IMG/VR virus record: IMGVR_UViG_3300008448_000135
Span: 1-50,036 of that record
Reading direction: 5' to 3' (one strand)
Source of the DNA: a virus
Length of the DNA stretch: 50,036 nt
A model generated the notes under the pieces. That model ran no database searches. It had not been told where the DNA came from and saw only the letters and a program-made list of their open reading frames with translations. This document shows, in pieces, positions 15,180 through 35,000 of this stretch (positions within the stretch are counted from its first letter, which is position 1; every line of letters begins with the position of its first letter). A program made the translations under genes and the position numbers.

Positions 15180-15302
15180 ACTCAGGTGGCGGAATTGGTA
15201 GACGCTAAATAGTTAAGGTGGTCAAAGCCAGACAGCTTCTTGTGGCAAACTTGCGAAGCTTTTGATAAAACCACCATAAAGGTTCGAGTCCTTTCCTGAG
15301 TG
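15180..15302 (+). tRNA. tRNA-Leu-like gene with abnormal, enlarged anticodon domain
   Basis: The acceptor stem is perfect: ACTCAGG (15180-15186) with CCTGAGT (15295-15301). T8 is followed by a class II D-arm of leucine type (GGCGGAATTGGTAGACGC, 3-bp stem). The T-arm is canonical: AAAGG, TTCGAGT, CCTTT at 15278-15294. The 72 bases between D- and T-arms are far too many for a normal anticodon arm plus variable arm, and I find no 5-bp anticodon stem. A TTAA at 15213-15216 could be U33 plus UAA. The insert instead folds as a long bulged hairpin, GGTGGT (15217-15222) with ACCACC (15270-15275) and AGCTTC (15234-15239) with GAAGCT (15255-15260). No CCA is encoded. It may be an interrupted tRNA, a tRNA mimic or a decayed gene. 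Confidence 0.6.
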
Positions 15303-15371: not shown

Positions 15372-15665
15372 ATGAAAAAGCAGTTAACCACACTTATTGT
15401 TTGCCTCCTGATAGGAGCTTCATCCTGCAATTCTACCAAGGATATGACCATCCCTGGGGAGCCTACCATCTGGATTGTGTCGGAGATCCACCAAGATAAG
15501 CGCATCCAAAACGGATTGGTAGGTTATAAGATCATCCCGGTAAATCACGGAAGTGTCAATGCCAAGCCTGTGTGGATTCTTGAGTTTTCAGGGAAATACC
15601 ATGTAGGCCAGCGATTGACCTTCGAACCCATATCCGCAGACAATGCTACTAGATTTCGGAAATAG
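15372..15665 (+). CDS. Small putative lipoprotein
   Basis: The start is ATG 15372, preceded by AACAGGAC, giving 97 residues. The N-terminus (MKKQLTTLIVCLLIGASSC) is a signal sequence ending in Cys. ASSC is a loose lipobox, so lipidation is likely but not certain. The rest is beta-rich (TIWIVSEIHQDKRIQNGLVG, KPVWILEFSGKYHVGQRL), compatible with a small periplasmic OB-like or beta-barrel fold. Surface lipoproteins on phages often alter superinfection. That role is a guess. Its 3' end overlaps the NinB-like gene by 23 bases. Confidence 0.65.
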   Translation: MKKQLTTLIVCLLIGASSCNSTKDMTIPGEPTIWIVSEIHQDKRIQNGLVGYKIIPVNHGSVNAKPVWILEFSGKYHVGQRLTFEPISADNATRFRK

Positions 15666-16059
15666 CTTTGATGTCTCAAAAGCTCGGGCGTACCTCGAAA
15701 AGCTCATAGAGAAGAAATGCAGGGCTGAAATCAAGCAGTCACGGGAAAAGCGAACGCTCAATCAGAATAGTTATTTGCACGTCTGCTTGGGCTATTTCTG
15801 CGCTGAAACGGGATACACCTTGGATGAATCAAAGGAGCTATTCAGCCATCAGTTGCCGGATCTCATGCGATACGAGAAAAACGGAGTAAGCTTTCGGAAG
15901 TCCACGGCCGAACTGGACACCAAGCAAATGACTGTTTTAATTGACAAAATCCGTGAGATGGCGATGGAGCAGCTAGGGATATACATTCCTACGTCTCAAG
16001 AATACCTGATCAACCAATTTCAAATCAATCGGGAATTGCAGTTGATGGGAGTGGGCTAA
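15643..16059 (+). CDS. NinB-like recombination protein (tentative)
   Basis: The protein has 138 residues. The segment KRTLNQNSYLHVCLGYF near residues 40-56, the later STAELDTKQM and the C-terminal LGIYIPTSQEYL match the general pattern of NinB/Orf-type phage recombination mediators (R-T-x-x-Q-N near the start of the domain; a helix and G-x-x-x-P near the end). These bind ssDNA or SSB and promote strand loading. The assignment is by pattern memory. The neighbouring VRR-NUC nuclease supports a recombination context. The TAA stop lies inside the first box of the attC-like element that follows. Confidence 0.55.
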   Translation: MLLDFGNSFDVSKARAYLEKLIEKKCRAEIKQSREKRTLNQNSYLHVCLGYFCAETGYTLDESKELFSHQLPDLMRYEKNGVSFRKSTAELDTKQMTVLIDKIREMAMEQLGIYIPTSQEYLINQFQINRELQLMGVG

Positions 16060-16148
16060 CGTTTGGGGCATATACGCTGCCCCGTAATTGATAAACTAAA
16101 GTTGAACAGCGTACTGTCCGCACGGGTAGCGTATATGCCTTGTTAGCG
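16055..16148 (+). repeat. attC-like recombination site 1 (integron cassette type)
   Basis: The outer boxes are GCTAAC (16055-16060) and GTTAGC (16142-16147). The inner perfect 12-bp arms are GGCATATACGCT (16067-16078) and AGCGTATATGCC (16128-16139), with further pairing CCCGT/ACGGG inside. The order R''-L''-loop-L'-R', with unpaired spacers between outer and inner boxes, is the architecture of integron attC sites. The crossover would be G^TT at 16142. The site separates the NinB-like gene from the 63-aa cassette gene. Confidence 0.65.
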
Positions 16149-16174
16149 GTTCGGTGCGGTAAATAAAAACGAAA

Positions 16175-16366
16175 ATGACAGTCAAAGAATTAAAAGAGAA
16201 AATTGCAAACCTTCCAGATAGCATGGATGTGTTCGTCGCTGAGCGAAAGACGGAGTTCACTTATGGACTTGTCAATAGTGCATTTGTCAAGAAAATAGAT
16301 TTTGTCGAAGAACCTGGCGGTGAAGTGTTGGCACAGGATAACGTTCTTGTTTTGGAAGAGGGATAG
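16175..16366 (+). CDS. Cassette-borne small acidic protein
   Basis: The protein has 63 residues, MTVKELKEKIANLPDSMDVF at its start, then a beta-rich acidic part ending NVLVLEEG. Similar short TVKEL-type proteins are common in Bacteroidota, but I know no function. The gene is bounded by two attC-like elements. The ten bases opening the cassette (GTTAGCGGTT, 16142-16151) are exactly complementary to the box that follows its stop codon (AACCGCTAAC, 16371-16380), as cassette biology predicts. It has no own promoter or terminator. Confidence 0.65.
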   Translation: MTVKELKEKIANLPDSMDVFVAERKTEFTYGLVNSAFVKKIDFVEEPGGEVLAQDNVLVLEEG

Positions 16367-16370
16367 CCCT

Positions 16371-16469
16371 AACCGCTAACGGTTGAGTGTATGAGTAGTG
16401 TGGCTTTACACATACTTTCAACTTACAAATAAACTTATTTAGCCACATTACTTATACACTTTGTTATGG
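16371..16469 (+). repeat. attC-like recombination site 2 (integron cassette type)
   Basis: The outer boxes are AACCGCTAAC (16371-16380) and GTTATGG (16463-16469). The inner arms are AGTGTATGAGTAGTGTGGCT (16386-16405) and AGCCACATTACTTATACACT (16441-16460), which pair over 20 positions with two G-T wobbles. The loop is AT-rich. The predicted crossover is G^TT at 16463. The arrangement matches attC sites, which are recombined as a folded single strand. Confidence 0.65.
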
Positions 16470-16624
16470 CACGTTTTAAAACTTATTATTACAAAAAATA
16501 CATAAATGCTGATTATTGGCACATAAGGTTTCAAACATACAGATTACAGCCAACGATTATTGAATATAAATTTGTATGGTGGAAACTTGGTTATAGGTAC
16601 TGCTTTTCTGTAAATGTGCCATAA
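16466..16624 (+). CDS. Cassette-borne small basic aromatic protein (52 aa)
   Basis: The frame of 52 codons starts at ATG 16466 inside the right box of attC-like site 2 and ends at TAA 16622-16624. The product (MARFKTYYYKKYINADYWHI at its start) is rich in Tyr, Trp, Lys and Arg. It is AT-rich compared with its neighbours. GTTATGGCAC at 16463-16472 and GTGCCATAAC at 16616-16625 are exact inverted repeats, so start and stop codons are embedded in the two cassette ends. No downstream inner stem like those of sites 1 and 2 is visible, so this cassette end seems truncated. Function unknown. Confidence 0.5.
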   Translation: MARFKTYYYKKYINADYWHIRFQTYRLQPTIIEYKFVWWKLGYRYCFSVNVP

Positions 16625-16662
16625 CTTGTTTATTTGCGAAGTTCCTTATACCAAAACGCTAA

Positions 16663-20073: not shown

Positions 20074-23000
20074 TTAATTAATTCCTAGTATCTGCTTTAG
20101 CGGATTTGGCCTGTTGGCAAACTTCTCCTCTCCAAATCGCTTGTTAAACTCTCGCATGATCTGTGTGCGCTGATTCATCAAATCTTCGATGTCGGCATCA
20201 AACGCCTCTGGATCGGTCTTTTTTAGCTCGTTGATGGTTTGATTCATTTGTGAAACGATCTTGTCATAGCCTTTGTATTCGTCCGCTAGGATGATCAATT
20301 TCTCGTTTTCCTTGAAGAACTGCTCTGCATCCTGATCCATGGCACCTTCCACCATCAATTCATACGCTTCCTTGGCGGCAATCGCTGCATCCCTGTTTTC
20401 GTAGAAGTTCTGTCTGGCCTCGAAGTCGGTGCCTGTTTTCTGAACGAATGATCGGATAAACGGAACGGATCTCAAGTAAGGATCATCGAATATCTGCTGT
20501 CCTTCAGCAACATTACCCAAGGTGGTAATCAAGTTCTTTCCGAACTGTACCGGACCACCGAAGTATTGCTCCACTCCGTATTCGATCCACTCTGGGTTAA
20601 GGTCTATTGCTCCCGGCACTACTTCATTTCCTCCTGTGGCTTCGTTAAGGAACGTAGTTGCATCCTTCAGGTATGGATTCACTCCCTCGAAATACATTTG
20701 GCTATCGGGTAGCTTGTATTGGTTGGCAGTGAAATTCTCGGGGTAGATCGGTCTGCCTGTAAAGTTTCTGTTGAATGCCAAATCCAATACAGGGGATACA
20801 ATAGATGGCGCAATGGTCTGTGCTGCCTGTTGAAATCCGTTTTGCTCGGAATTAAACTCTATGCCTCCAATCGGTGAAAACACGTTGGTCATGGCACTGA
20901 GCATTCCAATGGCTTCCTTACCTGGGTCTGACTTCCCGGTGATGATACGTCCAAGGGATTCCCCTGCTGAGAAGAAGATGTTCAAACCGTATGGAAGTGG
21001 GATCTTGATAAAGTCTCCGTCTCCTGTCGGGATGATCATATTGTTTCTTCTGACGTAATCAGGGATTTTCTCATAGAAGGTCTTTCCGTCCTCATCCTCC
21101 TCGTCAAAGAGTCCGTGAAGTGCGGATTGCATCATTCCTGTTGCCATGATCGCTCCTGCAAATCCCCATGCTTTCTTGCGTGTCTTTGGATTGACAAACG
21201 ATCTCAACAATCGCTCGGTACCTTGTACGGAAGCATTGAAGAAGATGAACACGGAGCCAATGGCTGCTGAATTACGTCCTTTTCGGTTGAAGTTTACAGT
21301 CAAGTCCTTGGCTTTGGATGCGGCCTGTTGCTTGGATACTCCCTGCTCTCTCAGTGTTTTGTAGTAGCTGAATCGCATTGCGTTTTCCAAGGTCTTGTTA
21401 TACACTTCCAATCCGTGCCCAAATGCCTGAATCGGCTTCAAGGTTTGAATTCCTCCTGCTCTCCAAAGGTTGGTCTTGTCTGCCTTGGCGATTTCTTTCT
21501 GCACCTGCTCAAAGATTTCACCTGCTGTTTTTAGGTCGGTGTACCCGGTCATTGCTCCTTCTTCCATGAATTCACGGAGTAGGTTGCCGTCTTTTCCTGC
21601 TGGGAATTGATCGTTGTTGAAGAATGCTGACAAGGTTTTCATGGACTTGCCCATTTTCTTCATGGTTTTGGCTGCTGTGCCAAAATCCTGATCTACCACC
21701 ATGTTGAACGTGCCGAACCCAAGGTCACGGATCAAGTTTCGGATACCGAATTCAGGGCTGTACTGTGTGTACATGGAGGATAGCCAACGGGTGTATTTTC
21801 TCAGCCAGTTCAGTCCTTCAGGTACTTGGTCCTGATTGATGTTTTTGAGTGTGGACACCAATCCTTTTTTGCTCTCCTTGTCGTCCTTGTAGTTGACATC
21901 CTTAAACTCAATGAATACTTTCTTTCCTTTGACCATTACCGGAAGCACTCCTGCAAGCTCTCCCTGCTGCTGTACTGATCGGTGTACGTTTGGATTGAAG
22001 GACTTCATGGCCTCACCATTGGCAAACTGTGCCTCGGTCGGCTTGATCATCGTCTCCATCCAAATATCATTGCCAAACTCGTCCTGCATCTTGGTGTTGA
22101 CGTAGTAGGCGTTTCGGATGAAGTATTCTCCCGGAGATACGTTTTCTTTCACAAATTCAAGCACTGACTGCTTCACTCGGTTGTTTTCGCCTCGCATGAT
22201 GGCCTCCTGAGCTGCGGTAGCCATGAACGGGATCGGATCTCCTGCCTCTGAGGTACGTCCTTTGGCACTCATTAGCATGGAATACACTCGTTCGTTAGTA
22301 GTCTCCATCCCGGACCAATCGGTCAATGGTACATAGTTTTTGTATCGGGTCAGAAGGTCTTTGTAAACGTCCTTGGTGATCATTCCTGCCTTGTATCGCT
22401 CTACGGTAGTGAAGGTGTTGATTTTATTCACTTGGTCACGTAGCTTTTTGGCAAGCTCGGGTGAAACAGCATCCTTGAATTTTTGGATTCGCTCTGCTGC
22501 TTCTTCATCGGTCATACCTGTCGGCCACTTAGGATCAATCTTAGCAAGCTTTTTCTCCCATTGAGCCTGAATTTTATCTTCCCACTCATTTGGAGTGTAC
22601 GTATCCTGCAAATCTTCATCTACTGCGTATTGATTACGCTTGCCCTCAAGGAATGCTTCCATTCCTGCCTCGTCCAATCCTTCCTTCTGGTAGAAATACT
22701 CTTTCCTCTCCCCATGGTGCATGGCCTTGAGGTAGTTGGAAATATCCTCGGAAGTTAGCTTGGTGGACTGCGCAATCTGCTGGGCAGTCTTGATCATTGG
22801 GTTCCAAAGGTCATTGGTAAACCTTCTGGACTTTTCCAATGCCTTGCTTGATGCTAGGTTTTCCTTGGTGTAGAAATCTGCCTTGTCAGATACGTTTCCA
22901 TCGGTCTTTCGCTGAATCAATCGCTTGGCTCGGATCATACGGTCTTGGAATCGCTCAATCACGTTGCGCTCCATCCAAGAAAGCTTGGCCTCCTTGTAGT

Positions 23001-26000
23001 TTTTATTGTTGATCGCTGAGAAGTCTGCTGGCGTGGATCCAACTTTCAACGCTCGGATATCCGGGTCGTTTCCATCAAAGTTTCCACTGTTTCCAGTAGC
23101 AGATTTGATTTGGGTTGGGGAGAAGGCTACAAATATTTTTTCATCTCCATTTTCCTCTTTATCAAGATTTTCAGCAATAATTCCATCATACTTTCCTGAT
23201 TGAATCTCTCTTAAAATTTGACTTCTCTGTTTGTCAATAGCGGTATTTGGTGAATACCATCCATCTCCTTTAATTCTTAATGGATTTTTGATTGACAAAT
23301 AAACAGGCATAACATTAGCCCCTGAAAGGCTTGAATAACCTTCTTTCTGAGCATTAAATGCGTATTCACTTGCTGTTGAACCATAAGGAATACCTTTTGA
23401 AAGGTTTGGTTCTGCTCCGCTTGTAAAGTAGAATCCAAGTACAGATTGATCAAAGTTGTCACCCATGTACTGCCTTGAAAATTCATTAAAATCATTTGCA
23501 GTCCCATGATACACCACCAAAGGCTTACCGTTTTCATCCACCACCTTTGAATCCCCGAACCATGCTTTGAAGGCTGGCGTTTGGGTTTGGTCGTTGGCTT
23601 GGCGCATGAACATTGGCAATCCCATCAATACTTGATCGGTCAATTCAGGAGTTACAGGGATGGAGTGTTGGAGTGATTCTTGTGCGTTTTTAGGTGATAC
23701 GGATTCAATTTCACCGTCCATTCCAATTTCAACCTGAAATCCTTTTCTGTCTGCTCTTTTTGCAAGTTCGGTTGAATTAATATCCCCATTTTCAAACGCC
23801 TCCATGTCATTAAGTAGTGACTGAGGCAATGTAGAAAGGGCTTTATTGCTTGTCAGCCTATCTTTTATAGCGATTCCAACTGGCTGAACCATTCCTTTCC
23901 CTACAATGCTTTCTGCCACACGGCCAACCATACCGATGTCACCTGTGGAAGGATCACCGTAGAAGGCTTTCATTCCGGTGCCTCCAATGGCTAAATCTTC
24001 ACCTTCAAACTTTGCTGATAAACCTGCCGAAATAACTTTTTGAGCCATTTCTTTACCAATCACTTCTTCTAGGTTTTTCCCGGTAAAGTCACCTACGTTA
24101 GTGCTTCCTCTTTGGTATATAATTTCACCTGTACTTGGATCAATTTTAAAGTTAAGCATCCCACCTTGCTTTAATGAAACATCAACAAGGGTAGATTCTG
24201 GACCATCCATAAAAGACATAGTGTCTTTTTGAATGTAATCAACATGCTTACTCAAATTATACCTTTCATTCTGCTGAGTTCCGGTAGTCCAGGCGATGCG
24301 ATCTGCACCTTGGGCAACGGCTTCTTTCATCGCTACTTTTAGACCAAGCTTTATCCAAGAGTTTGTGTCGGTTACGAATGGGGCTGATGGCGTTAAAGAT
24401 TGCTCTCTTTGAATTTGATCTTTAATTGATTCAACTCTTTTTGCTTCTGGTGTATTCCAAATTTCCGAAACACTAAGATTTACAAAATCAAGCTTATTGT
24501 ATTCTTTTTCGGCCTCAACAAGCTCTTCTTGAAGCTTAATTAATCTCTCCCTTTTGTTAAATCCAACACGTTTCCCCTTCTGTCCCCAATCGCTCTGTAC
24601 CTCCTCCAAGAATAGCACTTTGCTTCCGTCTACTGCGGTTCGGGTGTTCATTCTTAGGTGAACAAGGATGTTCGGCTCGGTAAAGTGTCCTGAAACAAAG
24701 TGCATAGATTTTTTCTCTGCATTTAGCTTTTCAAGTGCTAAAAGGATTGCGTGTGCAGCTCCTCCTGATTCTGTGAATTCATTTCCTTGCGGATCAAATA
24801 CAATGTATTTATCTCTCGCAGAATTATACTCATAATCATATCCTTTTGGAAGCTCTTTGATCTCACTCGGCAACGTCACCAACACTTCTTTGTAGTCAGT
24901 TTTGTCCCCTTCAAGCTGGTATTCGGAGAATTTGGTATTGTCTGTTGGCTGTAAATTAAATTGCTCTACTTGCGCTCCTGACTGAATTTCTCTTTTACCG
25001 TCTACAAATACATCGTAAACTATTTGAGTTGCAGAAAAAACAACTGGGTTGACTTCAATAAGCTGTGCTTTTGGAAAATTTGTTTTTGCCCACTTTTCCC
25101 AAATAGCAATATTCGGGTCAGTCTTAGGCTTAATTTTACCTAATACTACTTCCTGAATCTCCACCCGATTTTTCTTCATCCAATCCAACAACTCTTGCTT
25201 GGAAATTTGCTGATCTGGTTTTAGTCCGTCAAGGTATTGATACACTCCGGTCCACTGTGCTTCGTCCTTCTTGCCTACGATCTCCTTCCACTTGTTAGCG
25301 GATGCCTTGGGCTGCTTGAAGTCTAAAATTCGCTGTTCAATCGGAGAATAGAATCCATTGATGACTTGGGCGTTCTGATTTTCCTGAATCATAGTAGCCA
25401 TTGTCTGATCCACTCCCTGTCGTACTACTGGACGTCCCTGCGGACCTCTTACGATTCGCATGGAGTTACCCAGGATGTTTCGGATCTCAGAATCACTCAA
25501 TCCGAATTCAAATCCAATCTGTCGGAGGATCTGTCGGAGTTTAGCCACTACACGGTCGATCCACTTGTCAGACACGCCATCCTGAGCCAAGTGCGCTAGG
25601 TACTCGTCTGCTGCGATGATCTGTTCTTTCTCGGTAAGTTCTGAAACAGGCTTGCCAAAATATCGGTCCACAATGTCCGCAAGGAATGGATCATTCTTCT
25701 TCGCCTCAAATACCTGAGCCATGAGCTTGTTGTACTCGTCAACGTACTTTTTGCGGTCTCCCTTGGCTTTTCTCCGCAAGGTCTCTCTTACACCGTAGTG
25801 GCCTATGATCTCGTGTAGCAGGGCTTTTTCCACGCCTCCTTTTTCAGAAAAGTAAGAGTGCGTTGCGATTAATGCTACCTCTGGCTCCCCGGTGGAAGTG
25901 TTTCCGATAAACAAGGCTGGAATCTCTTGCAAATCTTCCTCTCTGTACTGATCTGCAATCTGCGGATAGGCTTCCATGACCTCCTGTGCGTTGTTGAAGG

Positions 26001-29000
26001 TGCGGATCTTCGGTGCGTTGTTCCAATCTTTGCTGAATTCAGTTGCTTTTTTGGATATCGCCTCAGCTCCTTTGGTCAATTTTTTACCTGAAGGCTGTAC
26101 CGATGCAAATACGGAGGATAGGGAAGTAGGCTGGCGCATAGCCATAATGTCTGAATCATCTTCAAATGAATCCTCAAACATCGGAGTGCGTACATCGTTG
26201 TCCTCCTGATTATCCTTTGCCATTTGCTCGTTCATTTCAGTAATTTCTACTGCAATTCGAGCCTGATCTTCTAAAGCCTTGTTGTATTTCTCCTCATCCT
26301 CCCACTTTTGATCAAGCACTTTTTTAGCCTGTTCAGTCTGACGGGTCATTTCTGCTTGAAATGCCTTAGCATCTTCAATTTTATCGCCTAGCTTTTCGGT
26401 ATAGTCTCTAATCGTTTTTGCTGCAAATGCCGATCCTGTACTTAGCTTGTTTTTCTCAGGATACCATTTCTTTCCGGTAGTTGGATCTGTGACAGCAATT
26501 TGGAACATTTTTATTTTGCTTCCGTCTGCTGCAACAAGGTCGAATACATAAAGCTCCCATGCTCCATTTGCTGCCGTAGCGTGTGGAGTAAATGTTTTCC
26601 ATCCTCTAACCAAGGATTCAATATCTCCTTCAGTGTATGGTTTTGCTTTAAGTAGTGCCTCGCCTGCTTCGGTGATTTTTTCAAACTCCTTTCCTCCAAC
26701 TTTCAGGTCGTAGTTTTCTACCACATTGGTTTGGTCAGCAATGGCCTTGTACTTTTCGTACTGCTGCTGTGCTTTTTCGCTGTTTAGCTTTCTTTGGGTG
26801 TTGTTTTCAATATCAAATTTGGCCTTGCCTTGTCTGCTAAAAAACGCCTCCCTGCTGGATTGCAGTTGATCCAGTAACTTATCGTTTTTGGCTTTTTCCT
26901 TGATTACAGGGTTTCCGGTTGCCGCAGCCATGAAATCCGAGAATGAAGCTCCGTTGTCCTCGTCTCCGTCTCCTTCATCCATTACACGGTCTGCTGTGGC
27001 TCCGTTTTTAACCTGATCAATAAAGCTCTGCTTGATGGCCAAAAGCTCAAATTTGTAAGCATCCAAGGATCGCTCCACGCCATACACCTTGATGTCTACC
27101 TCGTTATTGTAAAACTCCTCGGCTACTTTGTTGCCTTGTCTCAATCCACGTCCGTTTCGTTGTTCGTAGTCTGATGGCCTCCAAGGAATATCTACATGGT
27201 GCATGGATACAATTCTTTCCTGCACGTTTACACCTGTGCCCATGGTTTCGGTAGATCCAATCAATATTCTGACCTCGCCTTTGTTTACTCTAGGGAATAG
27301 CTTTTCTTTTTTTGTATCGGTTTGATGGTCTGCCATCATTTCGATTTGATTGGCAGGTATCCCGTATTCTTCCACAAGGATTCGCTTGATTTCCCGTTCC
27401 CCGTTAAATGAAGGGTTGTAGGAAGATGTTTTGCCTGAATCCATAAACACCAAGGATACCCCCTTGTGCTTGTCTGATTCCTTGTAGGCTTGTGCCACAT
27501 CTGTTGCTACCTGAGCAAGCTTGCTGTTTGGATCAAATGGAGCTTGTGGGTAGATCAATCTCAAATCAATCGATGCTTTAGTAGCCAAATCCGTTACTTT
27601 AAGCATTTTGGCTTTTTTGGCCGCATCGCTCATGTAGTCAAAATCAGGAATATTCAATACGGCACCATTTCCAGTGCTGGCGTAGTTGATTAGCTTTTTG
27701 TAAAACTTTTCGAGGTTTTTGCTTGGTTTGATCAACCTGAAATCTTCCTTGCCTCCTTTGATTCCAGGCTTAGGCAGTTTCAGGTTGCTGTCGTTTCTTA
27801 CGTCTGCAATGTCGGTGTAAAGCTTGGCAAGCTCCGGCACGTTAATAAATCTTCTGAATCGCTCTTTGGCTTTCAATGATCCAGACACGCCAAATTCAAG
27901 CTCGGATGATTTTTCAGCAAAGGTTTTGGCCCATGAATCAAATGTGGTCAATCCAAGCTCTGAAAGTCTGTTTGGCCGCAGGTACTTGAGAATCAAATAC
28001 AGTTCGGCCATGGTGTTTGAAATCGGGGTACCTGAAAGAAATGTAGTTCCTTTGTCCCCCTTATGCACGTTTTGCAAGTGGCGAACGGCCATCAACAAAT
28101 TGAAGGTCTTTTTTGCTCCTTCCTTGGTGCCAAGTCCTGCTACTTGTGTGTGGATTGTGGTATAGTTCAGGTTTTTAAAGGATTGGCTTTCATCTACCAT
28201 GATGTGATCAATGCCCAAGCTTCCAAAGTCCACAATCTCCTTATCCTTTCTTGAGTCGGATAGCTCTTTCAGTTTTGCATTAAGATTTTGGATTCTTGTT
28301 TCAAGTCCTTTAATCTCACGCTTTGACATTTGCTCCTTGGATCCTCGGAGTTCTTCCACGGTCAGGAGTAACAAATCAATTTCGTCCTGAATCACTCGCT
28401 CTGCGGTAGATGGATCGGGTTCGATCTGTCCAAAGTTGTCATGGGAAAGAATCACTACATCCCAATCATTCACTGAAATCTGAGAAAGCACCTTTTTTCT
28501 GCGCTGTGCGGAGAAATCCTTTTCTGTCGGTGCCAACACTTTGGCTGCTGGATAGGCTTTTTTGAATGCTTCAGCTATCTGAGGCACTGTTGATTTTTTG
28601 GCAATGATTAACGGTTTTTTAGCCACTCCAAGGCGTTTTAACTCCATGGCTCCTGAAATCATTACCAATGTTTTTCCAGCTCCTACAATGTGGTCAATTA
28701 CACCTCCATTGTTTTGAACAATCATATTGATCGCATCCTTTTGGTGGTCACGGAGTTTTACTCCGCTTAGTCCAGGGAATGACATAAACGATCCGTCAAA
28801 CTTGCGTTTTACAGTGCTATTAAACAGTCTGTTGTAAGTTGCTGCTATTTCTTTTCCAATCTGCGGCTTTTGTGATAACCAAAGTCCCCATTCCTTTTTG
28901 ATTTTCTCTACCACGGATATTGCTGCTGCTGTTTCCACTGGATTGAAAATCGTCTCGGAAGATCCATCAGGATATCGGACTACGTCATTGATACGTATGG

Positions 29001-32000
29001 TTTGATCTGAAAACGCTTTTTCAATCAAATCATTGGTGCTCATACGATTGGTGACGTACTCTCTATTGTAAACCTCTCTGCCTAGCTTGTAGGTGTCTGT
29101 TCCTTCCAAATACCTTACAGTTACATTTCCGTATCCAAGCAAGTCGCTCAGGAAGTCTCCATACACCTCGCTGTTTACGTATCTTGCCCCAAGAGGAACT
29201 TTGATCATTTCAATAGGCAACGGCTCTGGAAGAACTGCTTCCAACTCCTTTAAGTTGTCTGCAAATTTTGCATCGTCTTTTACCTGCTGGATTTTGTCGT
29301 AAATGTTTCCTGATAGGTATTGTGCTCTGCTTTCAAATGATCCGTCAGGCAGCTCAAATACAAGTCCTTTGCTTTGCTCAAACCAATCCTTGCCCAAAAG
29401 CTCCTGCATCCTTGCAGGATTGATTCTGTTAAACTCATTGAGTGAAATCAGAATCGCTTCCTGCGGTGTTTCAGCCTTGGTAATTAGCTTGATCGGGTTG
29501 ATTGTCCGCTTTTCAAAAATGTCTGCAAGACCTTTGAACTTCCCTTTTTCGTCCAGCATTTCCAGTGCAAGGACTTGGAAGGAGTCAATATCATCGGAGA
29601 ATACGTTTTTGTACTCGTTCAATCTTCCATGGTTGGAATTGAATCGCTTGTACTCAGATTTTAGTCGTTGACGGATTGGAGTCAATACCTCGTCAGACTT
29701 ACCGAATTTCTCCTCGTTGATCAGCTCATTGAGTGTTTGTCTGATTTTGATGAAATCACGGATTGGCTCTAAGTACTTTTTGAATACGTTGATTTCTTCT
29801 CCTTCAAATCCTCCCTGTTCATTGGAAGAAAGTGCTTGATAGAATTTGCCGTCTTTTTCAAAAATGTTTCCTGATCGGATTTTTTCTACTCCTGAGTAAG
29901 ATTGAATCGTCTTTACATCGTCCGCATTTTTGGTGTTTGCAGGCGTGTATTTTACTTCTTGTGCATCTTGAGCCAATGCCTGAACAATTCTTTCCCGTAG
30001 GTTTTTGGCTATGCTTTGAGTGCCTACAAGGTCGTTTCCGTTTACTGTGTACCCGGTTTCATCACTATACTGTCCACCTCCTTCAATAATTCCAAGGATG
30101 TTTTGTGGATTGTCAATGAAATACTGGTTTAGGTTAAATCGTGATCCATCCTTTGTCTGTGACTTGCTTGACACAAAATTGTGCTTCTGCTCAACTTGTT
30201 CTCCTGCCGTACGCTTTTGAAGGAAAATGATATCAGTTACCACCTTGGTTCCTGAAGCTCCTTGGAAGGCATTGTTTGGCAGTCTTACAGCTCCGATAAA
30301 CTTGGTGTTGTCAGCCATGAACCTTCTGATTGGCTCATTGCTAGGCGTATCCATTACAGCATTGGAAGTCAGGATAGAAATCAATCCACCCTCTTTTGCT
30401 GATTCAATCATTTTGACTACGAAGTACCCGTGAACGGTTTGCTGCGCCTGTCTGTAAACAGGTTGCTTTTTACCTTTCCAAGTCGGGTCGTAGATTTTCA
30501 CTTGACCAAACGGAATATTCGAAATGATCAAATCATACAGGTTTTCCTTGATGTTGGCATCTTGAAGTCCTGAATTGATCGTTTTTGATCCTGGGTACAG
30601 CCTTTTAAAAATCTGAGCTGTCATCCAATCCATTTCTACTGCATCCAGCATGGAGTTTTTGGCCATGCTTTCAGGCATAGATCCAAAGTAGTTACCAATA
30701 CCGGAAGAAGGATCAAGCACTTTTCCTGATTGGAATCCCATCATCTTAATTAGGTCATAATGGGCTCTGATCAACTCGGGCTCGGTGTAGTGTGCGGTAT
30801 TGATGGATCGCTTGATGGATTCATAAATACCTATTTTACCGTCAGGGTCAAGCTCTCTGGAAAGGTCAATTACCTTTTGAACTCGCTCCTTCATCGCTTC
30901 GGATGAAAATCGGATATACCTAGAGCTTGGGTCATAGGCCACCTCTGCAAGTCCTCCAAATCCTGAATAACCAAACAGGGTTTCCTTTTCCTGTGGAGTA
31001 ATTTCGGTTCTTCCCTCTTTAATGATGTCAGTTAAAAGCTCAAGTGCTTTGATGTTTTGATCAAAACGCTCGGCAGGACGGAAGGTGTTAGGATATTCAA
31101 ATCCTTCTGGTATTAAAAAGTTGTCTTTATTCTTTTTGCGCTGTTCGGCTTTTCGCTCTACTTCACTTGTAGGAGCTTCGCCAAATCCGTCTGTTTTGGT
31201 TGTTCCGGTTGATCCTCCGTCTCGTCCTCGATTATCTCCATCAACAACGGATTCGCCAGCTCCTCGGCTGTTATCAGGTCGTAGCCCATCCCCCGGAGTC
31301 TGTCCATCTCCTGATTCATTTGCTCCTGTTTCTCCAATAGGTAGTTTTGGAGTGTTCCCTTGGCTACCATCTCCCCGTACAGTTGGGGTTTGTGGTCCTT
31401 CATTGCTTGTTGTAGGCGTTTGGCGTACCTGCCCATCACCTCCCTGTCCTTGTTTATCATAGTAGTTTAGGTCTGCATTTGGATTGATTGCTCGTCCTTG
31501 GGAAAGCAAGTTAGGTATCCATGTTTTAAATACGAAATCTTTTGCATCTCGTTTGCCTCTGACATTCTTGATTTTACCATCTTCAACAAACTCTTGGTAC
31601 AATCCAATATTATGCTGGGTAAAATTCAATGGATACACTGCGCCATTGGCAGGAACCACCATCAAGTCAATACGAGGGTCGCTCATAAGATCCCCGTTTT
31701 GAAGGTAGTTTTGCTCCAAAATCAATTTGAATGCTCCCGTGTAGTCATAGCCCATGCCTTGAAGCATTTCTTCTTCGTAAGGCATTTGCTTCTCCACTGC
31801 AAAACGCATAAATGCATCCCCGAACTCACCGGATGTTTGATACCATCCCATTGGCTCGTTGGCAATATCTCCCAATAGGTTTTCAAGAGCCTTCATGTCC
31901 TCGGTTCTCTTGACTTTTACCTTTGGTTCTTCTTTCACCACTGGTTTTTTGGCATCCTCAATAGGGGCTTTTGGAGTAAGAACGTCCTTGATTCGATTGC

Positions 32001-35000
32001 TATCTGTCAAATCAGGGTTTTCTTTATCCAAATAGCCTTTTGCTTCCTGCTTGATTTTTTTAGCAAACTCACCAACGGTTATTTTGGTATCTGCCCATCT
32101 GTTTGCCCCTGTGTACTTGCTTGATTTTTGGACAATTCTGTACAGAACTCCTTCATCATTAGCGGTCATCATCCAAAGTCCGCTTCCTCTGGAAAGTCTT
32201 AATGGATCGGTAAATCCGCTTTGATCATCATAATCAGGCTCTACTTTAAATGAAATGTAAACTCCGTACTCGCTATTAGGTGCCCAAAGTGTAATATCTC
32301 CATCGCCTCCTGCTGGTGCTACATTAGTGCTTGCATAAATAGGGTTGCCTTTCTTGTCAGTGTCATGCTGCCATCCAAGTGCTTTTGCAAGTGCCTTAGA
32401 GTATTTCACCAAGTCCTTGTGAAATACTTTTGCGTGTTGTCTTGTCGGAATTTCATCCTGATCTGACAATTCACGGGCATTGTAATACCCGGCAAGCTTT
32501 AATTCCTCCTCAACATCGCTAAGAAGGCTGTCTACTTCTTCGAGCTGCTTGGCCGCTGATTCACGATCTTTAATAGACTTGACTTTTGCTCCTGAAGCTG
32601 CTGTTTTATCTTCAAGAGTCTTGAGATTCTGCTTTGGTTGTCCAGCTTCGTTTCCTGTGATTTCATTTCCGAATAGGTCTAGTTGTGGTGCTTTTGGTTT
32701 TTCAAAAAGGTTTGCTTGTTCAGATTTTTTAACAACACCTTTATTGTGTTGATCTTTAACAAATTGATTGAACTCACTTAGTTTTTGGGGGTTATTGTAT
32801 ACATCAAACTTTTTGATGGCTTCTTCAATCAATTCTCTTGAATACGGGTTTTTTAATCCTGAAAGTGATTCAGCTCTTTTTACAGCTTCCTCAAATGTTT
32901 CCCCGTAAATTGGAACCAATGAGCTTGGATCAAAAAATCCATCAGAAATACCTTTTTTTGCTTGTTCAGCTTTAGTATTTTTTTCCTTTATCTCTCTTTT
33001 TTGAGAATTGGTTAGATCACTGATAGGTCTTTCCTCAAATTCATATTTAATGAAATGACGGTTTGCATCTGTGTTCCAATTTGATTCTACTTTTGTGTCA
33101 AGATCAACCAAAACGGAAATACCTCCTGGAGTAAGCTTCTTGATTCTATACTTTGTACCTGAATAAACGCTTTGAACTTTATCACCTTGTTTGAATGAGC
33201 TTAGATTTTTAGGTTCTCCTTCAATTACTTGTTCTGATTCCCAAGGTCTTTTTGGTTTTTTATCTGCTTCTTTTACCTCCTCTACCAAAAATTCATCCAC
33301 TGGCTTTTGAGCAATGGCGTTTAGATCCTCGTTTTCAGGATTGCCCATCATCATCACTCTGGCACCGTATGCCGCACGGAATGAATCGTATTTCTGTCTT
33401 AATGCATCCGCTCCAAGGTTTTCTTTAGCCCATTGGATCATCTGCTCAAACTTTACCATTCCAAGCTCTGCGGACTTGGCAATGATCTTTCCTGCGATCT
33501 CGAAGTCTTGACCGGAAACACCTGAACGTAGCTGTCCACCTGAACCGAATTGGTTCCAAAGGTCTTTGAGCTCGTCATTGATCTTTTGCTCTTTCTCTGA
33601 AAGTTTTACAACACGGTCAGAAGGATTGCTTCCAACGCCCTTGTCTCCTCCGGTGACAATCCCTTCTCCCTGCTTAGGATCATTAGGATTTGATTTTTGT
33701 CCGTCCCTGCCAAGGTCATTTCCTGAGCCAACTTGGTTAGCTCCTCCCTTTTCTTTTGGCTGATTAACGCTAGGCTGATTTCCGCTTGGAGCTGCTGGAC
33801 TTGACGGAATCGGCTGATTTGATCCTTGTTCATTGATTTTGTTGGTTAAAATTCTACGAATTGCATCGAGTTCGTTTGGTTTAAATCCTCCTGGGAATAC
33901 AGTCCACCAATCAGGATCGTTGGTAAGGCTGTCTAAAGCGGTTTGATAGTCGATTCCATCACCGTCTTTCCAGTTCATTTCCAAGAACTCTACAATATCG
34001 GGGTTATTAGCAAGATATTCAGCGATTTGCTCGTCTGATTCCAAAAGCTGGCCTTGCTCGTTTTTAGTGACTGACTTTCCTTTTAAACTCTTAGTAATAG
34101 ATTCAGCATTGCGCTTGTTGATTCCCTTTCCTGTAAGTGCTTTGTACTTGTCAGATATGGCTTTGAGCTTAGGGTTTCCGCTTGGCTGTGCGATTTGGTC
34201 TGCGCTGTTGTAACGCATGATGAAATCCACCACGTCCTGCGGTGAAATGTAGTCGTCATTTCCTGCATAATCTTGGGATGCTTCCTGAGCAATCAGGTCA
34301 ATTTTCTTACCTGTTCCTTTCTTTGCTATCCAATTACCTGCAAGACCTTGTGAAAGGTTGTTTCTGTCTCCGAAACGGGCAAATGAATCAGGATTCACTT
34401 TACCAATATGCCTTGCAATAACAGCATCAATCGGATCTACTCCTTCTAGGTTTTGGACTTCTGCATCGTAAATCTGTGCAAGCTCGTCTGCGGTTTGAGC
34501 TTTGTCAACATCTTCGTATTGGGATGGAGTTAATACTTCTCCTCCCTGAACCACCCCTTTTTGTCCTTCTCTTTCTTTGGGGCTGTCTTTTTGGTCTTTG
34601 GCATCTTGGACATCTTTTTGTCCTGCTTGGCCTGTCGGTTGGGGTTGCTGTACTTCATTTTGTGGTTGTGGTTGGTTTATCGGAATTTCAATATTAGATC
34701 CTTCACCAATGGATTGCGTTGGTGCATTTTCAGGAGTAAGTAATCCCTCTGCTCCTTCGATTGGTGCTGCTGGTTGTGTTGGTACATTACCGGATTGAGT
34801 CGTGGTTGGTTGTGCATCTGGCAGGTTGTTTAGGAATCTCAGTGAAGCAGAAGGAAAATCAATGATATCGGCCAATTCTGCGCCTACTTCTCCTCCGTTT
34901 TTAGCCAAAAAGTCCTTCATCCAGGTAGTGCGTACCTCTCCCTGAAGTCCGATCGGTGCAAAATCGAACTTGGTTCCAAGCTTTTGTTCTACGAGCTTGG

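Follow-up and report, generated by a model that had tools for sequence, protein, structure and literature searches.

Two integron-like cassettes in a tailed phage genome without a recombinase gene probably belong to a G.T site class served by XerA-like recombinases

The sedentary chromosomal integrons that encode IntI (TIGR02249) are among the known systems closest to the locus reported here, with which they share AAC/GTT boxes, asymmetric spacers, a foldable bottom strand and boxes that match across each cassette. They differ in two features that are both absent here, namely the extrahelical bases of the IntI attC and the insertion of IntI, which reportedly contacts these bases. Integrons are stated to need the insertion in order to function (PMC8138268), and complete integrons have been found to be nearly absent from Bacteroidetes (PMC9024848). 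In a sample of 297 Bacteroidota genomes, IntI was detected above its curated cut-off in 84, many of them with bulged attC arrays adjoining (L061-L080), which is more than that study reported from complete genomes. Clusters of phage-borne attC-like sites without an integrase, like those described here, are already known from the work of Qi et al. (2023; PMC9892861), where two attC were reported in the phage P12002L, one of which proved usable by IntI1 in E. coli, on its bottom strand. That study differs from the present one in that few sites were counted, their directions were taken from HattCI ("divergent"), and they were not linked to a XerA-like recombinase, to a G.T class or to inverted open reading frames (ORFs). 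A third point of comparison is provided by the XerA-like recombinases (NCBIfam NF040815, "site-specific tyrosine recombinase/integron integrase"), the best-scoring family for the recombinases found beside arrays in this study; nothing in the family name refers to a site class of its own or to an array of cassettes, and no member is encoded in the DNA analysed here.

The stretch analysed (hereafter the window) comprises 50,036 nucleotides, positions 1 to 50,036 of the IMG/VR record IMGVR_UViG_3300008448_000135, and represents a tailed phage of Bacteroidota whose portal protein shares about 33% identity with those of Bacteroides phages, a distant kinship. Near one third of its length lies what is, with a probability of roughly three in four, a pair of integron-like cassettes forming an orphan array, whose sites belong to a G.T class served by a XerA-like recombinase. 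This reading draws on the sites themselves, their class, the gain and loss of whole units in related phages, the link to a recombinase and the inversion of the ORFs. As listed in Table 1, the cassettes are placed at the end of a NinB-like gene without damage to it, the first AAC box sharing bases with its stop codon (TAA, 16057-16059). Portal, terminase, SSB and replication genes were found elsewhere in the window, away from the cassettes. Searches of IMG/VR with the NinB-like protein, the portal and ORF2 gave no close relatives, and blastn against annotated phages gave no relative of the window phage; consequently, no empty site is known for this locus, and no empty relative was found. Two other features of the window can be mentioned: a tRNA-Leu-like sequence at 15182-15302 on the + strand (GGCGGAATTGGTAGACGC ... 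GGTTCGAGTC) has matching acceptor arms and is called by neither ARAGORN nor Rfam, and a single open reading frame of 5,681 aa (20074-37119, - strand) takes up a third of the record.

Table 1. Features of the cassette locus, in window positions, and the putative partner site of the related Freya phages. R1 is the covariance model described in the text; its E-values for the window sites are rough.
Feature	Positions	Strand	Basis
NinB-like gene	15643..16059	+	phrog_72 NinB, E=1.8e-20
Recombination site 1, attC-like	16050..16152	+ = folding strand	R1 30.7 bits, E=3.7e-5 (rough); stem
Cassette 1, AAC-to-AAC unit, 320 bp	16058..16377	+	predicted from the exact units seen in Freya
Box GTTAGCGGTT	16142..16151	+	exact complement of 16371-16380
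ORF1, 63 aa, MTVKELKEKIANLPDSMDVF...	16175..16366	+	homologs in phage contigs, two also beside such sites
Recombination site 2, attC-like	16370..16473	+ = folding strand	R1 52.8 bits, E=1.6e-10 (rough)
Box AACCGCTAAC, cassette 1 end	16371..16380	+	exact complement of 16142-16151
Cassette 2, AAC-to-AAC unit, 245 bp	16378..16622	+	predicted from the exact units seen in Freya
ORF2, 52 aa	16466..16624	+	no homolog found in search
Box GTGCCATAAC, right boundary	16616..16625	+	exact complement of 16463-16472
Right-hand landing sequence AACTTGTTTATTTGCG	16623..16640	+	inferred from the boundaries
Putative site paired with the Freya integrase, AACACCCCTATAAC			

Each of the two sites, which lie in tandem, has a foldable inner stem enclosed by paired AAC/GTT boxes. 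In site 1, AAC is at 16058-16060 and GTT at 16142-16144, with an inner stem of 15 Watson-Crick pairs and one G.T and spacers of 6 and 2 nt; in site 2, AAC is at 16378-16380 and GTT at 16463-16465, with 18 Watson-Crick pairs, two G.T and spacers of 5 and 2. The stem of site 2 is free of bulges and that of site 1 has a single one, located deep, after 16 pairs, neither showing the extrahelical bases expected of an IntI attC in its L box arm. DNA folding gave z-scores of -3.4 to -4.9, with none of 200 dinucleotide shuffles folding as well on either strand, and a scanner for the arrangement YAAC-spacer-stem-spacer-GTTR found only these two sites in 50 kb and none in ten Markov shuffles. A search of Rfam gave no match. 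Two attC-like elements had been proposed at this place in an earlier note made from the sequence alone, with coordinates that agree with those found here. The note had also called attention to exact box complementarity across each cassette, a hallmark of cassettes, and this is confirmed for both 10-base pairs, formed by GTTAGCGGTT with AACCGCTAAC across cassette 1 and by GTTATGGCAC (16463-16472) with GTGCCATAAC across cassette 2. Beyond GTT, the boxes agree at 9/11 and 10/11 bases. Excision of both cassettes is predicted to leave GGGCTAA^CTTGTTTATTTGCG as the empty site.

Homologs of ORF1 led to phage contigs with similar elements, and comparison with these and with chromosomal elements places the window sites in a class distinct from the IntI attC, characterised by a stem without extrahelical bases and by a nearly invariant G.T pair. 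A covariance model (R1) was built from 62 phage and chromosomal elements, the window being excluded. In the alignment 95.5% of the cells are paired and 355 are compensatory (score 0.746, as opposed to 0.175 when shuffled); as the elements were chosen for having stems, the paired percentage alone proves little, and it is the compensatory changes and the fixed G.T that carry weight. The AAC/GTT pairs are invariant, and at one position of the stem 61 of the 62 elements have G.T; both window sites align a G.T pair to this model position. Both sites are scored by the model, that of site 1 modestly, and the window boxes are without the TTGC/GTAG extension common in the class, where spacers of 5-6 and 1-3 nt are found. 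A pattern scan for one site subfamily returned no match, with a gap range that was probably too narrow. Matching of boxes across ORFs is a property of the class as a whole, averaging 8.3/11 in chromosomes (at most 5.1 in permutations) and 6.3/11 in phages (at most 4.8 in 2000 permutations), the latter mean being lowered by a few intervals that skip undetected sites.

These comparisons bear on the foremost alternative, namely that the window holds ordinary IntI cassettes (CALIN) derived from a chromosomal integron and mobilised by the IntI of a host. Such an origin would account for the anatomy of boxes and hairpins, would be in keeping with the frequency of IntI in the sampled Bacteroidota genomes, and finds a precedent in the P12002L site that works with IntI1 (PMC9892861), a site that may not be among the elements aligned here. 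It is nonetheless unlikely, considering that extrahelical bases are lacking in 82 of 89 elements of the class, compared with a mean of 2.7 bulges on one arm in an IntI attC set that had been selected for bulges. The two kinds of site are also separated by their profiles, with R1 matching nowhere in attC-rich IntI loci that total 394 kb. Conversely, a profile of 31 Bacteroidota IntI attC, which gave 28 matches in IntI loci and was confined to IntI sites, scored neither window site; this profile is sequence-only, given that RNAalifold assigned no structure to the IntI attC alignment, and constitutes a weaker test than R1.

The orientation of the ORFs further separates the phage arrays from IntI cassettes. 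At the window sites the + strand is the folding, or bottom, strand. In its spacers (5-6 nt, then 2 nt) the window agrees with Bacteroidota IntI attC arrays read on the bottom strand. These arrays were examined with a gap-tolerant scan, their attC being bulged, and under this polarity 26 of 33 IntI cassettes carry the ORF on the expected top strand. On the folding strand of 55 phage elements, under symmetric scoring, G.T was counted 91 times and A.C 9 times (p=3e-18, an optimistic value for related sequences), and the location of crossovers in the left AAC box of related phages is consistent with the same assignment. Read on the - strand, both window cassettes are complete with their own site, while reading on the + strand leaves the second without one. 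The window units are those of the bottom-strand reading, with the cut at AA^C on the + strand. Both window ORFs are coded on the folding strand rather than on the top strand of the site, and are therefore opposite to the usual cassette direction. The same arrangement was found in 33 of 36 phage intervals, in contrast to chromosomal arrays, where 22 of 25 intervals have the ORF on the top strand, and the two sets can be compared because one model aligns both. Relative to IntI cassettes, phage ORFs are inverted (Fisher p=1.4e-9), which again argues against an IntI origin. Longest ORFs stood in for annotation on metagenome contigs in these counts; for P12002L/S, Freya and Danklef, the strands match those of the deposited genes. 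The description of the window elements as integron-type cassettes in the earlier note accordingly holds for attC-like sites without an integrase, and is wrong or incomplete as regards polarity, the ORFs being inverted, and class, the sites not being IntI attC. Arrays are located downstream of the recombinase gene in chromosomes and upstream of it in phages, so that the ORFs follow the direction of that gene in both. This points to a phage-adapted cassette pool, with genes following phage transcription.

The enzyme of this class is probably the XerA-like recombinase that adjoins arrays in the Polaribacter phages Freya and in three IMG/VR contigs (L096, L098 and L100). The Freya enzyme, of 271 aa, has PF00589 and PF13495 domains and scores 146 bits to NF040815, compared with 96 to TIGR02249, where the cut-off is 265. 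Scores to NF040815 range from 146 to 184 in phages and from 160 to 232 in chromosomes, the cut-off of 220 being straddled by the chromosomal members. The IMG/VR relatives of the Freya enzyme (36-39% identity) have three to four elements of one polarity directly upstream of the gene in the three contigs named; of the others, L099 is a near copy of L098 and L097 ends at the contig end. A short AAC-TATAATATAT-like stretch before the recombinase gene in three of these relatives is a candidate attI, as is AACACCC..ATAAC in the same position in Freya and in Ingeline, a phage with the recombinase in which R1 found no match. A homolog of the recombinase (E<1e-40) was found in 49 of 148 sampled Bacteroidota genomes, and elements occur within 1.5 kb in 15 of 30 chromosomal recombinase loci. 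Twenty larger chromosomal loci held 48 elements, where shuffles gave 1 and IntI loci 4, and the recombinase is present in 16 of 28 genomes with R1 matches compared with 33 of 120 others (p=0.004); several chromosomal matches lie 1-8 kb from the recombinase and some far from any. An alignment of 19 proteins has revealed that the XerA-like recombinases do not possess the insertion of about 37 residues found in IntI. In a tree of 66 rows, 29 IntI form one clade with 100/100 support that includes no phage or XerA-like row; one IntI row outside it (L057) is probably in the wrong frame. The missing insertion and the missing extrahelical bases would go together, a coincidence that makes mechanical sense.

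Exact gain and loss of units has been observed in the Freya phages. Over 44.8 kb, Freya_2 and Freya_10 share 99.99% identity; a single block of 4,100 bp sets them apart, the sequence being TTTACAACACCCC in Freya_2 and TTTACAACGTATTTG ... TTGTTGCTAACACCCC in Freya_10. Exact string comparison resolved AAC-to-AAC units of 902, 2891, 307 and 472 bp: Freya_2 is empty, Freya_5 carries [902], Freya_6 [902][472], Freya_8 [2891][307], Freya_9 [902][2891] and Freya_10 [902][2891][307]. All junctions fall within the shared AAC, as predicted for a folded strand cut at AA^C. Precise presence or absence of cassettes at the AAC/GTT box, which the earlier note had made a test of its reading, is seen in these related phages and favours that reading, though it is not seen at the window's own locus. 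The array adjoins the recombinase gene. Nearest to this gene are the cassettes that Freya_6 and Freya_10 have in addition, as is the case for new cassettes beside the attI of an integron. In the paper describing the isolation of these phages the recombinase gene is taken solely as a sign of temperate life, and the words "integron" and "cassette" are absent (PMC8776804). Annotated cargo of phage cassettes includes DNA methyltransferases and many small genes. In the Danklef phages (Danklef_1, L086:11361-11492) a partial integrase of the Freya type is split by a reversed ORF and the array is kept. Another contig (IMGVR_UViG_3300037245_001420, L004:3500-5249) has a repeated hairpin unit of a third type, about 480 bp long, with arms of 30 nt and a complement of 25 nt spanning the ORF; it includes an ORF1 homolog, goes unscored by R1 and is possibly another cassette class.

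In the proposed mechanism, each cassette would pair a small ORF with a site of which the + strand, when single-stranded, folds into a hairpin between AAC/GTT boxes. A tyrosine recombinase would cut the folded strand at AA^C and the cut strand would be joined to a second site of this kind or to one resembling attI, moving whole units in or out. No PF00589 match at E<=10 was detected in the window record, which bears out the earlier statement that an integron integrase is absent, and the window phage would depend in trans on the enzyme of its host or of a co-infecting phage. Its array, two cassettes of the class placed where ninB ends in a genome lacking a recombinase, is an orphan, as those of P12002L and P12002S also appear to be. 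That neither a recombinase in the record nor an empty-site relative was found counts against the reading, under which the window's own cassettes would be mobile.

The Polaribacter phages P12002L and P12002S carry many such elements, oriented with the genes with few exceptions, and the P12002L sites belong to the class of the window according to R1 and the alignment. These two phages differ by about 1 kb of cassettes (L081:39516-39709, L082:38941-40622), with the junction inside a stem arm and not in a box; they were considered as an empty and filled pair and, in view of this junction, not counted as site-specific. Ordinary recombination between like sites thus reshapes arrays as well. That observation, together with the two cassettes and missing recombinase of the window record, would suit an array that was once mobile and is now frozen, its members being relics without a working enzyme that are kept or decaying as ordinary genes, a history rendered quite improbable by the intact state of both stems and both 10-bp box pairs, which decay would erode. 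Hairpins acting in mRNA processing, stability or termination, with G.U reflecting RNA folding, would explain why phage sites fold on the mRNA strand and why G.T is strongly preferred to A.C on it, but were rejected as hardly credible, as chromosomal genes lie on the opposite strand (22/25), box matching across ORFs and exact loss of units at AAC would be unexpected, and Rfam gave no match. A MITE was also rejected, the neighbouring sites differing in stem sequence with pairing kept.

Taken more broadly than the orphan array of the window, the data make it fairly likely that Bacteroidota chromosomes and their phages share a second integron system, with a XerA-like integrase devoid of the IntI insertion, an invariant G.T in place of extrahelical bases and a separate pool of inverted phage cassettes, of which the window phage is an integrase-less member. 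Phage attC clusters were known before (Qi et al., 2023); the pairing of this recombinase with its site class and the inverted phage cassettes are apparently new, and no description of them was found in the open-access literature, though one may exist elsewhere. The integron-like gene-swapping system, with its own site type and recombinase, is apparently undescribed. If true, a system without both the insertion and the extrahelical bases would constitute another way of choosing the folded strand, and some arrays regarded as lacking an integrase would become complete integrons with an unrecognised one. With phage isolates on a single host differing from each other by whole cassettes, the capture of cassettes can be tested directly in culture, and phages would be equipped, if this holds, with a gene-exchange platform of their own.
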